This document shows positions 7,895 to 13,251 of a stretch of DNA of 64,000 nucleotides, in pieces. The translations under genes and the position numbers were made by a program. The DNA lies in assembly GCF_031656915.1 (NCBI RefSeq), contig NZ_CP134227.1, forward strand, positions 2,108,001 to 2,172,000, read 5' to 3'. The notes under the pieces were generated by a model, which did not search any database, was not told the origin of the DNA, and saw nothing but the letters and a program-made list of their open reading frames with translations. Numbering within the stretch: position 1 is the stretch's first letter; every line of letters starts with the position of its first letter. This DNA comes from Nocardioides marmorisolisilvae (GTDB lineage Bacteria > Actinomycetota > Actinomycetes > Propionibacteriales > Nocardioidaceae).

Positions 7895-8686
7895 TCAGGC
7901 AGTGCGGCGGACCAGCTGCAACCGCCAGGCCTCCGGACCGCGCTCGAGATAGCTGACCTCGAACACTGAGGGCTGACGCTGCTCGATCTGGGCCAGCAAG
8001 GGGAGCGGGTCGTGCGGGGCCACCAGCACCAGGCCGCCGCCGGGGTGCACCGCGTCGAGGGCCCCGAAGATGGTGGCGTGCCGGATCGCGTGCGGGACCA
8101 TCCTCGCGTCGAGCTCGGGGTAGCCGGGCCCGTCGTGCTCGCCACAGGAGCAGTTGTGCCCCGCGGGCGCTGCCTCGGCCTCCTGCTCGTGGCCGTGATC
8201 GGCTGCGCCGGCCAGCTCCGCGTGCATCGCCGAGAGCAGGTCGGGCAGGCTCACCCCGGGAGCACCAGCCAGCGCGGGCAGGAGCTGGTCGTTCTCCTTG
8301 GCCAGGTGGCTGTCGAAGAGGACCTGCAGTGCCCGGGCCGCGCCGACGGCACGAACCGCGTCGGTCGCGGTGCGCAGGTCGGCGACCAGGGACGCGAGCA
8401 CGACGTGCTCGGCGAGCATCGCCTCCACAAGGATCCGGGCCGGAGCGATCGCCAGGCCCGCAGGATAGAGGGCCGACTCCTCGGCGGCCGCGTGCGGCAG
8501 CAGGTCGCTCTCGCACCAGCCGACCAGGTCGGCACGCGCGGCGTCGACGCCGTCGCCGCCGCGAGCGGCCAGCTGCAGCGCGGACACCCGCGCGCTCAGC
8601 GCACCGGCCAGCTCTGCGTGGTGCTGCTCGATCGCCTGGACCGCGGCTGCGTCGGCCGCGGTGCTCGAGATCGCCACGTCGTTCAT
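7895..8686 (-). CDS. hemerythrin-like / DUF2249 two-domain protein
   Basis: The protein has 263 residues. The N-terminal half (about 1-160) is a four-helix hemerythrin-like domain with candidate diiron ligands in EQHHAEL, HAAAEESALYP, AEHVVLASLV and FDSHLAKENDQLLPAL. A linker with a CxC pair (HNCSCGEHD) leads to a DUF2249 domain of about 70 residues (ELDARMVPHAIRHATIF...GGGLVLVAPHDPLPLL...). Such proteins are linked in the literature to NO or oxidative stress, Fe-S repair and denitrification clusters. The start at 8686 has a strong AAGGAGG seven bases upstream. It is divergent from the regulator and nirK-type genes, which suggests a role in NO handling. Confidence 0.85.
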   Translation of the reverse strand: MNDVAISSTAADAAAVQAIEQHHAELAGALSARVSALQLAARGGDGVDAARADLVGWCESDLLPHAAAEESALYPAGLAIAPARILVEAMLAEHVVLASLVADLRTATDAVRAVGAARALQVLFDSHLAKENDQLLPALAGAPGVSLPDLLSAMHAELAGAADHGHEQEAEAAPAGHNCSCGEHDGPGYPELDARMVPHAIRHATIFGALDAVHPGGGLVLVAPHDPLPLLAQIEQRQPSVFEVSYLERGPEAWRLQLVRRTA

Positions 8687-8774: not shown

Positions 8775-9452
8775 GTGGAAAATCGAACCCCCGATCTGGG
8801 CCCGCTGCCGGCGACGCCCACGGTCACCGGACTGAGCCGGGGGCGGCGCACCGTGCTCGACCTGCTGGGCGCCCGACCGGAGCCCACCACGCTCGCCGAC
8901 CTGGCCGAGCTGGCCGGGCTGCACGAGAACACCGTCCGCGGACACCTCGACGCGCTCGCCGACGACGGCCTCGTGACTCGGGTCCGCGCCGAGCCCGAGG
9001 GTCGGGGCCGACCTGCCTGGCTGTGGAGCGCGAGCGGGGCCGGCACCGACCACCCGGAGTACGCCGGCCTCGCCACCGCCCTGGCCCGCACCCTGCTGCG
9101 CACCAGCGCCCATCCCGAGGACGACGCCGTCGAAGCAGGTCAGGTGTGGGGCCGCGAGCTGGCCAGCGCCTCGACCGCGACGTCCGAGGGAACCCCGCCC
9201 CGGCAACGGGTCCGGCGCCTGCTCGCGGACCTGGGCTTCGCGCCCGAGCCGGGTCGCTCGGCGAGCGGAATGCGGTTGACCCGGTGCCCGCTGCTGGAGC
9301 TGGCGCGCGAGCAGCCGGGCATCGTCTGCAACGTCCACCTCGGTCTGGTCGGCGGCGCGCTGGAGGAGTACGGCGCCACCGACCTCGACGCCGAGCTGCG
9401 GCCGTTCGCCGAGCCGGGAGCCTGCCTGCTCGACCTGCGAGACCAGCCGTGA
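8775..9452 (+). CDS. HTH transcriptional regulator with SufR-like cysteine pattern (putative Fe-S/NO sensor)
   Basis: A 225-residue protein. Residues about 18-85 form a winged HTH (RRTVLDLLGARPEPTTLADLAELAG...ENTVRGHLDALADDGLV). The C-terminal part has Cys171, Cys185, His188 and Cys217, a spacing close to the three conserved cysteines of the SufR family, which bind a [4Fe-4S] cluster. Mycobacterial SufR responds to NO. The GTG start at 8775 has no Shine-Dalgarno and a -10 seven bases upstream, so it is probably leaderless. Its stop overlaps the next start (GTGA). It is likely the local regulator of the nitrite/NO module; cluster binding is inferred. Confidence 0.75.
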   Translation: MENRTPDLGPLPATPTVTGLSRGRRTVLDLLGARPEPTTLADLAELAGLHENTVRGHLDALADDGLVTRVRAEPEGRGRPAWLWSASGAGTDHPEYAGLATALARTLLRTSAHPEDDAVEAGQVWGRELASASTATSEGTPPRQRVRRLLADLGFAPEPGRSASGMRLTRCPLLELAREQPGIVCNVHLGLVGGALEEYGATDLDAELRPFAEPGACLLDLRDQP

Positions 9453-10570
9453 CGCTGCTGCACCCGGCCCCGGCCGAGGCCGGTGGTGCCAAGCGACCCA
9501 CGGGATCCCGCGCCTGGCTGCTCCTGCCGGCAGCCGTCGCGCTGCTCGCCGGGCTCGACGCCGGGCTGATCCTGCTGGGCGTGCCGGCGCCGGTGAGCGC
9601 CCGTCGGCTGCCCGACGTCCACGGCATGGTGATGGCGCTGGGGTTCGTCGGCACCGTCGTGTGCCTCGAGCGCGCGATCGCATTGGGCGAGCGACGTGCC
9701 CTGGCGGCACCGGCCCTCCTCGGCGTCGGCAGCCTGCTGCTGGTCACGCCGCTTCCCCTGGTGGTCGGTCGAACAGCCCTGGTCGCCGGGATGGCGGCGA
9801 TGACGTCCATCTACGTGCCGCTGTGGCGACGACAGCGCGACGATGCGGTGCTCGTGCAGGCGCACGGCGCCGTGCTGGGCACCGGCGCGGCCCTGATGTG
9901 GCTCGGCGGGACGCCGATGGCGACGCTGCTGCCGTGGCTGGCCGCCTTCCTGGTGCTGACCATCGCCGGCGAACGGCTCGAGCTCGCCCGGCTGGCGATG
10001 GGCCCCGGCGCCGGGCCGACCCTGGTGCTGCTCTCCGGGCTGCTGACCTGCGGGGTGGTGGCGGCGCTGCTGTGGCCGTCCGCGGGTCACCCCCTGCTCG
10101 GGCTGACCCTGCTGGTGCTCACCGGCTGGCTGGCGGTGCACGACGTGGCGTGGCGGACGATCAGGTCCACCGGGCTGCCGCGCTACACCGCCGCCGGGAT
10201 GCTCGGCGGGTACCTATGGCTCCTCGTCGCCGGCGCGGTGTGGCTGGTCAGCGGATCGTCGTACGGAGGCCCGGCGTACGACGCGGTGATCCATGCGGTG
10301 TTCCTCGGCTTCACCATCTCGATGATCATGGCCCACGCCCCGGTGATCCTCCCGGCGGTGCTGCGCCGGCCACTCCCCTATCACCCGCTGATGTGGGCGC
10401 CTCTGGCGCTGCTGCACGTGTCGCTGCTGCTCCGGCTCTGGATCGGTGACGCCCTCGGGCAGCAGCAGTGCTGGCAGCTCGGTGGTGTCCTCAACGAGGC
10501 CGCGCTGCTGTCCTTCGCGGGCCTGGTCGTCTGGTCCCTGGCTCGTGCCCGCCGGACGGGGGTCCGATGA
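9449..10570 (+). CDS. polytopic membrane protein of the nitrite/NO module (NnrS-like or heme-copper-oxidase-like, uncertain)
   Basis: A 373-residue protein with about 11-12 hydrophobic segments and several histidines inside or beside helices: LPDVHGMVMALGF, VQAHGAVLG, AVHDVAWR, YDAVIHAVFLGFTISMIMAHAPVILP and LLHVSLLLR. The histidine-bearing helices recall NnrS and heme-copper oxidase folds, so heme or metal binding is plausible but not shown. It starts at a GTG overlapping the regulator stop and ends overlapping the ATG of the nirK-type gene (ATGA), so all three are translationally coupled. Confidence 0.65.
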   Translation: MTLLHPAPAEAGGAKRPTGSRAWLLLPAAVALLAGLDAGLILLGVPAPVSARRLPDVHGMVMALGFVGTVVCLERAIALGERRALAAPALLGVGSLLLVTPLPLVVGRTALVAGMAAMTSIYVPLWRRQRDDAVLVQAHGAVLGTGAALMWLGGTPMATLLPWLAAFLVLTIAGERLELARLAMGPGAGPTLVLLSGLLTCGVVAALLWPSAGHPLLGLTLLVLTGWLAVHDVAWRTIRSTGLPRYTAAGMLGGYLWLLVAGAVWLVSGSSYGGPAYDAVIHAVFLGFTISMIMAHAPVILPAVLRRPLPYHPLMWAPLALLHVSLLLRLWIGDALGQQQCWQLGGVLNEAALLSFAGLVVWSLARARRTGVR

Positions 10571-13251
10571 GGATCGCGAACGGACCGGTCGAGGTCGGTG
10601 CGCGCAGGCGCTTCAACCCGATGCGGGACATCCCCGCGGTGCTGTGGCTGCTCGCCGTCGTGGTGGTCGCGCTCGTGCACCGCGAGCTCGCCGCGCCACG
10701 ATGGCTGATGTTCCACCTGCTGCTGCTCGGTGCGGTGACCCACTCGATCCTGGTCTGGAGCCAGCACTTCGCCGACGCACTGCTGCACACCGCGCCCACC
10801 TCGTCGGCGTACCGCAACCGGACCGTCCGACTGGTGCTGCTGAACCTGGGTGCCCTGGTCGTGGTGCTCGGCGTCACCGGCGTCCACTGGGAGGTCGCCG
10901 CGGCCGGCGGGACCGCGGTCGTGGCCGCGGTCGGATGGCACGGGGTCTCGCTGGTGCTGCAGCTACGCCGCGCTCTGGGCTCCCGGTTCGCAGTGACCGT
11001 GCGGTTCTACGTCGCCTCGGCGGCACTGCTGCCGGTCGGGGTGCTCTTCGGCGTACTGATGGTGCGCGGCGCGGGGATGCCTTGGCATGCCCGGCTGATG
11101 ACCGCGCACGTGGTGGTCAACGTCCTCGGCTGGATGGGCCTGACCGTGATGGGCACCATGGTGACCCTCTGGCCGACGATGCTGCGCACCCGGATCGTCG
11201 TCGGGGCGGAGACGATCGCCGCGCGCGCCCTGTGGGTGCTGCTGGGCGGCATCGTGGTGGCGGTCGGCGGCTGCCTGGTCGGGCAACGCCTGCTGGTGAC
11301 CCTCGGACTGCTGGGGTACGCCGCCGGGCTGGTCGTGCTCGCGCGGCCCTTCGCGCTGGCGATGCGCAGCAAGCCACCGCTGCACTTCCCGACCTGGTCG
11401 GTGCTGGCCGCGGTCAGCTGGCTCACCGGCGTCGTGGTCGCCCTGGCCGTGGGTGTCGGTGTGGCGCCCGGCTGGATGGCCGCCCACGAGCTCCTGGAGG
11501 CTCTCACGCCCGCGCTCGCCGCCGGCTTCGGGGCGCAGGTGCTGCTCGGCGCCCTGTCCTACCTGATCCCGGTCGCGGTCGGCGGAGGCCCGGCCGGCGC
11601 CCGCGCTGCGAACACCGTGCTGGACCGCGGCAGCGCCCTCCGGGTCATGGTCGTCAACGCCGGACTCGTGGTGTGCCTGCTGCCGGTCCCGGCGATGGTG
11701 CGGCTGCTGGTGTCGGTGACGGTCCTCGTCTCACTCGCCTCGTTCCTCCCGCTGATGTTCGCCGCGATGCGGGCTGCCCGCCAGGCTCGTGACGGGGCCG
11801 CGTCCATGGCCGCCCGAGAGGTGCCCGCTGCCCGGCGTACCGGTCCGGCGCCGGTTGCCGGCGAGAGGCCCCGCGGTCAGATCACCGGCCTGGCCGCAGC
11901 AGGGTTCGCGGTCGTGGTGCTCGCCGTGGCCGTCGGAGTTGCTCTGGACCCGGCCGCGCTTGCCGGCACCGAGCACCGCTCCTCCGCCGATGGGGTGGTC
12001 GCGACCGGCCACACCACCCACGTCGTCGTGCGCGCCGCGAACATGCGGTTCACCCCGTCGACGGTGAGTGTCCCGGCCGGCAACCGGCTGGTGATCGACC
12101 TGCGCAACACCGATGCCCACGACGTGCACGACCTGGTGCTCGACTCCGGCGCGCACAGCCCGCGGCTGGGACCCGGGGAGTCCGCCACGGTGAACGCCGG
12201 AGTCGTGGGTCGCGACATCGAGGGCTGGTGCTCGATGCCCGGGCACCGACAGTTGGGGATGGTGTTCCACGTCCGGGTGACCGGGCTGGCGGCCGTGCGG
12301 CACTCCGGCACCGGGCACGACATGCCGGGGATGGACATGGGCGGCACGACGAGCGCCGACCATCGGGCCGCGGCACCCGTCGACCTCTCCAAGAGTCCTC
12401 CGGCCGGGTTCCGGGCGCATGACCCGGTGCTGCCGGCGCTCCCGCACGGCCGCGTGATCCGCCGTACCTTCACCGTCAGCGACGTCGAGTCGGCCGTGGC
12501 GCCGGGCGTCCGGCAGGACCTGTGGACCTACAACGGCACGATGCCCGGCCCGACCCTGCACGGACGGATCGGCGACCGGTTCGTGATCCGGCTGGTCAAC
12601 GACACCCCGATGGGCCATTCGATCGACTTCCACGCCGGCCAGGTCGCACCGGATCGTCCGATGCGCACCCTGGCACCCGGACAGGCGCTGACCTACCGCT
12701 TCACCGCCCACCATTCCGGGATCTGGCTCTACCACTGCTCGACCATGCCGATGGCGGTCCACGTCGCCAACGGCATGTTCGGCGCGGTGGTGATCGACCC
12801 GCCGCACCTCCCGCCGGTGGCGCACAGCTATGTGCTGCTGCAGTCCGAGCTCTACCTCGGCGCGCAGGGTGGCTCGGTCGATGTCGCCAAGGTGCTGGCC
12901 GAGAGGCCCGACGCCGTCGTCTTCAACGGGTACGCCGACCAGTACGACGCCGATCCGCTGACCGCCCGGGTGGGCCAGCGGATCCGGATCTGGGTGCTCG
13001 ACGCCGGCCCCGACCGCCCCACCTCGTTCCACGTGGTCGGCGGGCAGTTCGACACGGTGTTCTCCGAGGGCGCCTACCTGCTGCGACGGGGCAACCCCGA
13101 GCACGGTGCGGCCCAGGTGCTGAGCCTCGGCCCCGCGCAGGGCGGCTTCGTCGAGATCTCGTTCCGCCAACCCGGGCACTACCCGTTCATGTCACACCTG
13201 ATGGTCGACGCCGGCCGAGGCGCCCACGGGATCATCCGGGTCCGCCGCTGA
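10567..13251 (+). CDS. nirK: membrane domain - blue-copper domain - AniA-type copper nitrite reductase fusion
   Basis: An 894-residue fusion. Residues 1 to about 470 form a polytopic membrane domain with histidine-bearing helices (MTAHVVVNVLGWMGLTVMGT). Residues about 480-575 form a cupredoxin with type-1 ligands His521, Cys555, His560 and Met565. A His/Met-rich linker follows (HDMPGMDMGG). Residues about 630-894 form a two-domain copper nitrite reductase. All its catalytic residues are present: type-1 His684, Cys724, His732, Met737; type-2 His689, His723, His877; active-site Asp687 and His822. The eight-residue step from Cys724 to His732 matches AniA (class II). It should reduce nitrite to NO outside the membrane, with the fused cupredoxin as likely electron donor. 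Confidence 0.88.
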   Translation: MRIANGPVEVGARRRFNPMRDIPAVLWLLAVVVVALVHRELAAPRWLMFHLLLLGAVTHSILVWSQHFADALLHTAPTSSAYRNRTVRLVLLNLGALVVVLGVTGVHWEVAAAGGTAVVAAVGWHGVSLVLQLRRALGSRFAVTVRFYVASAALLPVGVLFGVLMVRGAGMPWHARLMTAHVVVNVLGWMGLTVMGTMVTLWPTMLRTRIVVGAETIAARALWVLLGGIVVAVGGCLVGQRLLVTLGLLGYAAGLVVLARPFALAMRSKPPLHFPTWSVLAAVSWLTGVVVALAVGVGVAPGWMAAHELLEALTPALAAGFGAQVLLGALSYLIPVAVGGGPAGARAANTVLDRGSALRVMVVNAGLVVCLLPVPAMVRLLVSVTVLVSLASFLPLMFAAMRAARQARDGAASMAAREVPAARRTGPAPVAGERPRGQITGLAAAGFAVVVLAVAVGVALDPAALAGTEHRSSADGVVATGHTTHVVVRAANMRFTPSTVSVPAGNRLVIDLRNTDAHDVHDLVLDSGAHSPRLGPGESATVNAGVVGRDIEGWCSMPGHRQLGMVFHVRVTGLAAVRHSGTGHDMPGMDMGGTTSADHRAAAPVDLSKSPPAGFRAHDPVLPALPHGRVIRRTFTVSDVESAVAPGVRQDLWTYNGTMPGPTLHGRIGDRFVIRLVNDTPMGHSIDFHAGQVAPDRPMRTLAPGQALTYRFTAHHSGIWLYHCSTMPMAVHVANGMFGAVVIDPPHLPPVAHSYVLLQSELYLGAQGGSVDVAKVLAERPDAVVFNGYADQYDADPLTARVGQRIRIWVLDAGPDRPTSFHVVGGQFDTVFSEGAYLLRRGNPEHGAAQVLSLGPAQGGFVEISFRQPGHYPFMSHLMVDAGRGAHGIIRVRR

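Follow-up and report, generated by a model that had tools for sequence, protein, structure and literature searches.

The 64,000-nucleotide stretch of Nocardioides marmorisolisilvae DNA analysed here (the window; contig NZ_CP134227.1, positions 2,108,001 to 2,172,000) carries a gene for an 894-residue protein in which a membrane domain, a type-1 copper cupredoxin and a copper nitrite reductase (NirK) are fused in one chain. We rate the chances about even that this fusion is a nitrite reductase built into the membrane, to whose copper domains electrons are fed by the membrane domain, probably jointly with a companion membrane protein encoded immediately upstream. NirK of the fused kind is common across Actinomycetota: 348 of 398 pattern matches in a genome contig collection code for relatives of the membrane domain. 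For this domain, which the available passages of an earlier report call "of unknown function" (PMC4770552), the analysis adds a predicted fold, that of the heme-copper oxidases, as well as two histidines that are universal in its family and a partner gene that is conserved beside it. The fusion gene and its parts are as follows, in window positions.

10567..13251, plus strand: fusion gene (membrane domain, cupredoxin and NirK), an 894-residue open frame from an ATG.
10618..11814, plus strand: membrane domain, residues 18-416, with a heme-copper oxidase subunit I fold predicted by the structure model.
10714..10716, plus strand: codon of His50 in helix 2, universal in the membrane-domain family (66/66 rows).
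11107..11109, plus strand: codon of His181 in helix 6, likewise universal (66/66 rows).
11878..11946, plus strand: helix 438-460, leading out toward the copper domains (helix limits of the structure model).
12004..12282, plus strand: type-1 copper cupredoxin, residues 480-572 (H521, C555, H560, M565), from PF13473 (1.8e-7) and conservation.
12439..13248, plus strand: NirK domain, residues 625-894, from TIGR02376 (1.6e-41, below its cut-off), PDB entry 6the (2e-42) and the ligands.

As a preliminary description of the window had proposed, all three parts lie in one open reading frame (ORF) that stays open over its 894 residues. The longest mechanical ORF begins further upstream, with a GTG at 10468, but the ATG at 10567 is favoured as the start because alignments with full-length relatives begin no earlier than query residue 2-13. 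Domain and structure prediction, suggested at that time as a check, recovered the cupredoxin and NirK with Pfam, TIGR02376 and PDB sequences (Cupredoxin_1 at 480-543 and Cu-oxidase_3 at 639-746, with no Pfam match listed in residues 1-470), and the model places a 12-helix bundle, then helix 438-460, ahead of the cupredoxin. The linker between the copper domains had been described as rich in histidine and methionine; this holds for the present protein, with 17% His+Met, but is no general feature, the median over 94 rows being 9%.

The architecture recurs. A search of the family Nocardioidaceae found matches over nearly the whole length in 19 of 149 genomes, including this one, in which the fusion was matched once (one contig, 4.23 Mb, 100% complete). 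Five further family loci are partial (L020-L024) and were not used, and alignment A1 left out L017. For locus counts we kept the best 80 of the 348 membrane-domain relatives; membrane domain, cupredoxin and NirK share one frame in 73 of these 80, a recurrence that excludes a sequencing error. We therefore give practically no credence to a frameshift, a misassembly or a chance ORF, all of which are refuted by the one-frame copies in the 73 loci and the 19 family genomes.

All four cupredoxin ligands, H521, C555, H560 and M565, stand where they had been claimed, follow a CX4HX4M pattern (C555-x4-H560-x4-M565) and are kept in every row with letters there (96-97 rows). For NirK we assigned ligands from the fusion's own sequence and general NirK motifs: H684, C724, H732 and M737 would hold type-1 copper, H689, H723 and H877 type-2 copper, and D687 and H822 would serve the active site. 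All nine diagnostic residues are present, and the earlier assignment of an AniA-like NirK is right. The corresponding columns are conserved in 92-93 of 93 rows, with the exception of residue 737 (codon 12775-12777), which is Met here and, across the 93 rows, Met in 62, Leu in 30 and Thr in one. In a search of PDB sequences the closest solved relatives of the C-terminal part were copper nitrite reductases, 6the being the first. The fusion likewise has all nine residues (seven copper ligands and the active-site Asp and His) by which NirK is recognized in the available passages of PMC4770552.

The membrane domain is predicted to have the 12-helix fold that characterizes subunit I of the heme-copper oxidase superfamily. 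Among 50 structural matches listed, subunit I structures such as those of cbb3 oxidase (8smr_E) and nitric oxide (NO) reductase (cNOR, 4xyd_A) share only 7-13% identity with it, and it differs from them further in having just two universal histidines and no match to PF00115, either in the fusion (up to E 1) or in 13 members of the family (up to E 10). No consistent match to its sequence emerged from Pfam, NCBIfam or PDB; the strongest, DUF2530 at 2.6e-4, appeared in 2 of the 13 members. Profile comparison gave weak matches to a mixed set of six heme-copper proteins (E 6.2e-4 and 1.5e-4, probability 28 and 52%) and to cbb3/NOR alone (E 0.023 and 0.013); a reversed control scored 18.2 against 26.5, and an NnrS profile reached E 0.0048 against the same mixed set.

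Histidines are indeed present in the membrane helices, as had been noted, but only H50 and H181 are invariant once deep relatives are included (66 rows); H38, H59 and H125 are mostly limited to the fused family. By the helix limits of the model, H50 sits 6 and H181 8 residues from the outer helix ends. The bundle also has invariant His, Trp, Arg, Tyr and Gly columns, and no conserved Cys or Met was found among its universal positions. The full set of His ligands of heme-copper subunit I includes the adjacent pair of helix VII. The membrane domain lacks this full set, and with no conserved adjacent His pair in the 66 rows the usual binuclear centre cannot be present, so we do not class the domain among the heme-copper oxidases. 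Helix 6 pairs with oxidase helix VI in an order-preserving structure alignment and, weakly, with FixN helix X by sequence (AHLHVNVLGW in several deep relatives, GHVHSGALGW in FixN); the pseudo-three-fold symmetry of the heme-copper oxidase fold would allow both pairings, and a permuted oxidase alignment scored essentially the same (26.5 and 28.4), favouring neither. An H-x-H motif occurs at helix 6 in 8 of the last 18 rows of alignment A5, or in 6 of 16 if only proteins made of the membrane domain alone are counted (L119 and L122 excluded). Lys and Arg number 18 in the inner loops versus 2 in the outer loops, with helix limits taken from the model and residues 392-437, which include a helical stretch at 393-416, counted as the loop before the last helix. 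By the positive-inside rule the N-terminus is predicted to lie inside, and the cupredoxin and NirK outside.

The fusion is the last gene of a conserved block, and this block includes a second membrane protein that the preliminary description had overlooked.

9449..10570, plus strand: companion membrane protein, 373 residues from the GTG at 9449 (inferred start), from the sequence.

Its gene overlaps that of an upstream regulator in GTGA and the fusion gene in ATGA, which suggests translational coupling, and it lies within 300 bp upstream of the fusion on the same strand in 72 of the 76 loci with enough upstream DNA. The companion has three conserved histidines (H56, H280 and H294 of its translation) and no match in Pfam, NCBIfam or PDB sequences. 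Against the membrane-domain profile it reached E 8e-4 over 300 columns, with a probability of only 24.6%; hmmsearch listed nothing when either profile was run against the other's set, nor did the companion profile match any of the 18 stand-alone regions described below. A short ORF in one locus (L098) matched the membrane-domain profile at 1.1e-4. The companion may be distantly related to the membrane domain of the fusion.

The membrane domain is also encoded on its own. At E up to 0.01 it was matched in 43 of 296 genomes of the phylum, many of the matches being proteins of ~400-440 residues. As a stand-alone set we used 18 of the 31 genomes that have a match better than 1e-18 and lie outside the eight fused ones, and identified neighbouring genes by BLAST with the window's domains, ten Pfam scans and two whole-genome family searches. 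The next gene encodes a NirK with a cupredoxin domain in three regions (L148, L150 and L155, the N-terminal cupredoxin of L148 being recognized by eye), whereas in L145 it encodes a cupredoxin-multicopper oxidase and in both L154 and L158 a small protein with a cupredoxin, giving an adjoining copper gene in 6 of the 18; in L149 a cupredoxin-multicopper oxidase lies 2.3 kb off on the opposite strand. PF07732 occurs within 2 kb in 4 of the 18 regions where 0.089 would be expected (Poisson P 2.4e-6, from 61 PF07732 matches in the 18 genomes). Among the matches listed, a cupredoxin lies within 1 kb in 3 of 18, against 0.18 expected (P 9e-4), with G288 shared between the two counts. When domains that one lineage has fused are encoded side by side in others, this commonly points to partnership.

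Seven of the 80 loci depart from the common layout. Three (L034, L035 and L036) are truncated at a contig end and L106 ends after the membrane domain, and L083 (3427-5682) and L095 (2476-5136) encode membrane domain and cupredoxin without NirK. The latter two retain the companion, the regulator and the hemerythrin-DUF2249 gene of the block, and their genomes, both metagenome-assembled, have only distant matches to the NirK domain. In L098 (7788-10121, Speluncibacter jeojiensis) no cupredoxin was found and NirK is without equivalents of D687, H689, H723, H732 and M737. The same Speluncibacter genome has a second copy elsewhere, 61% identical, with an 896-residue open frame.

In the mechanism that we favour, the membrane domain would lie in the membrane in its predicted heme-copper oxidase fold, with the extra helix leading out to the cupredoxin and then to NirK. 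Electrons would be drawn from the membrane respiratory chain, either from the menaquinol pool or from the bcc complex, would cross the membrane domain, probably jointly with the upstream companion, and would be accepted by the cupredoxin and passed to the type-1 and then the type-2 copper of NirK. Nitrite, which NarG (encoded in this genome) can supply, would be reduced to NO outside. We infer the steps from quinol to cupredoxin, for which the membrane domain would have to be redox-active, with H50 and H181 acting, close to the outer face, as ligands of heme b or of a metal, the companion would be in complex with it, the cupredoxin would act as the donor and the enzyme would be active. That electrons might pass from membrane to nitrite within one chain, as first proposed, gains indirect support from the predicted fold, the outside-facing copper domains and the split-gene neighbours. 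A more specific form of the idea, which we put forward tentatively, is that a heme-copper oxidase or NOR-type subunit without its O2- or NO-reducing centre works in reverse: menaquinol electrons would travel outward through one or two His-ligated cofactors to cupredoxin and NirK, with the companion, so that a module resembling subunit I and subunit II would be run backward, as one chain in some Actinomycetota and from separate genes in others. If such an outward conduit exists, the heme-copper fold gains a role beyond O2 and NO reduction, and the nitrite branch would be independent of soluble cytochrome c, which would matter for modelling the release of NO and nitrous oxide (N2O) from soil.

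Several observations weigh against a conducting membrane domain or an active fused enzyme. Most heme-copper ligands are absent, so the membrane domain may bind no cofactor. Replacement of Met by Leu at the axial type-1 position should raise the redox potential of the copper, and a shift is therefore to be expected in the 30 of 93 relatives with Leu. The fusion scores 142.7 bits against the TIGR02376 equivalog cut-off of 296.3 and is not filed under that family, although this cut-off is a naming threshold and no biochemical feature. An adjoining copper gene was not found in 12 of the 18 stand-alone regions by our non-exhaustive identification, and the genes of L083 and L095 may either point to a use of the membrane module beyond NirK or be in decay. 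In the passages available, PMC4770552 argues against transfer from the N-terminal cupredoxin in an enzyme studied earlier, and for Intrasporangium calvum the authors of PMC6349771 draw electrons via bc1 and name a separate qNor; in strain C5 nirK transcripts rose as nitrite was produced, with N2O as the terminal product.

The main rival to electron transfer through the membrane domain is that this domain carries no electrons at all, but anchors NirK and docks it on the bcc-aa3 supercomplex, whose own cytochrome would feed the cupredoxin, since these bacteria are not known to have soluble cytochrome c. The survival of only two universal histidines, the outward-facing cupredoxin predicted by the charge rule and the bc1 route drawn, in the parts available, for an actinobacterial denitrifier (PMC6349771) would all suit it. 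An anchor would need much less than this conserved bundle of 12 helices and its invariant columns, however, and the domain persists without NirK in L083 and L095; we regard this reading as rather doubtful. Those same two loci, in which the cupredoxin is retained where NirK is lost, could instead suggest a part in copper handling, with the membrane domain and the companion transporting copper or loading it into the cupredoxin and NirK; the several kinds of copper enzyme (NirK, multicopper oxidase, cupredoxin) found beside stand-alone genes could suggest the same. We think this unlikely, given that we found neither a Cys nor a Met column among the universally conserved positions of the membrane domain, that the linker which might hold copper is not conserved and that the predicted fold is that of electron-transfer enzymes. 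An oxidase- or NOR-like domain might also take up or reduce the NO made by the attached NirK, either completing nitrite reduction to N2O in one chain or shielding the cell from NO. This is weaker, and in our view slightly less likely still, because the ligands of a binuclear centre are absent: there is neither a conserved adjacent His pair nor a PF00115 match, and Intrasporangium calvum has its qNor as a separate protein (PMC6349771, passages available).

The architecture itself, presented by implication as novel, was already in print in 2016 (PMC4770552). As far as the available passages go, this report describes a ~900-residue NirK of Propionibacterium (Cutibacterium) acnes with the same order of a ~400-residue transmembrane domain, a CX4HX4M cupredoxin and NirK. 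The present fusion agrees with it in its 894 residues, its C555-x4-H560-x4-M565 motif and a bundle reaching to ~416, and we found no architectural difference, the two being likened by published description and not by sequence. Those passages give no fold for the membrane domain and make no mention of a companion gene, and our searches of open-licence listings showed no later account of this domain. Hyphomicrobium denitrificans NirK (2dv6, 6tfd), the first Foldseek match of the full model, likewise combines an N-terminal cupredoxin with NirK, but its solved chain of 422-424 residues is without a membrane domain. The same is true of Neisseria AniA and other clade II NirK (5ue6, 6the), whose solved chains have ~300-314 residues and whose core is ~30-33% identical to that of the fusion. 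The passages of PMC8756737 available to us deal with Chloroflexi and with a cytochrome fusion. NnrS (PF05940), a membrane protein encoded beside denitrification genes (as in a plasmid locus with nirK and nnrS), has an H..G..G..P spacing that by eye resembles that of the membrane domain. We rejected this identity: no PF05940 match is listed for the fusion or for the 13 family members, profile comparisons of ten NnrS proteins with it were not significant, nor was their comparison with the companion, and NnrS is not among the listed structural matches. A PF05940 search of the genome also gave no match, but its controls gave none either.

The 80 loci include Nocardioides, Nakamurella, Jonesia, Pseudonocardia, Geodermatophilus, Blastococcus, Arthrobacter, Brevibacterium, Microbacterium and Rhodococcus; a plasmid collection held no record with a single place covering 80% of the fusion protein. 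Among the stand-alone regions, L147 (1128-3212 and 5886-7184, minus strand) has its membrane gene 2.7 kb from a NosZ-like gene recognized by eye. The conserved block around the fusion is completed by two further genes.

7895..8686, minus strand: hemerythrin-DUF2249 gene, 263 residues (PF10006 1.7e-23, PF01814 1.4e-12).
8775..9452, plus strand: winged-helix regulator, 225 residues (HTH_20 8.7e-9).

The hemerythrin-DUF2249 gene is divergent from the run of regulator, companion and fusion. Of the 80 loci, 61 have a relative of this gene in the neighbourhood of the fusion and 69 have one of the regulator, and all four genes keep order and orientation in 51 of the 73 loci with 3 kb upstream. DUF2249 genes rise under denitrification in Haloferax mediterranei according to the passages available of PMC11218638. 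In the regulator three cysteines are almost invariant (43, 42 and 42 of 43 rows), and it matches SufR, among others, weakly (TIGR02702 at 0.0012, far below cut-off); judged by these cysteines it might be the NO, metal or Fe-S sensor of the block. Downstream of the fusion lie genes for an AMP-binding enzyme, an EamA-type transporter and an ABC ATPase. The genome also has two COX1-family genes, both strong matches, and, as labelled by eye, 11 of the 80 loci contain NarG-like genes and 6 contain flavohemoglobin-like ones.

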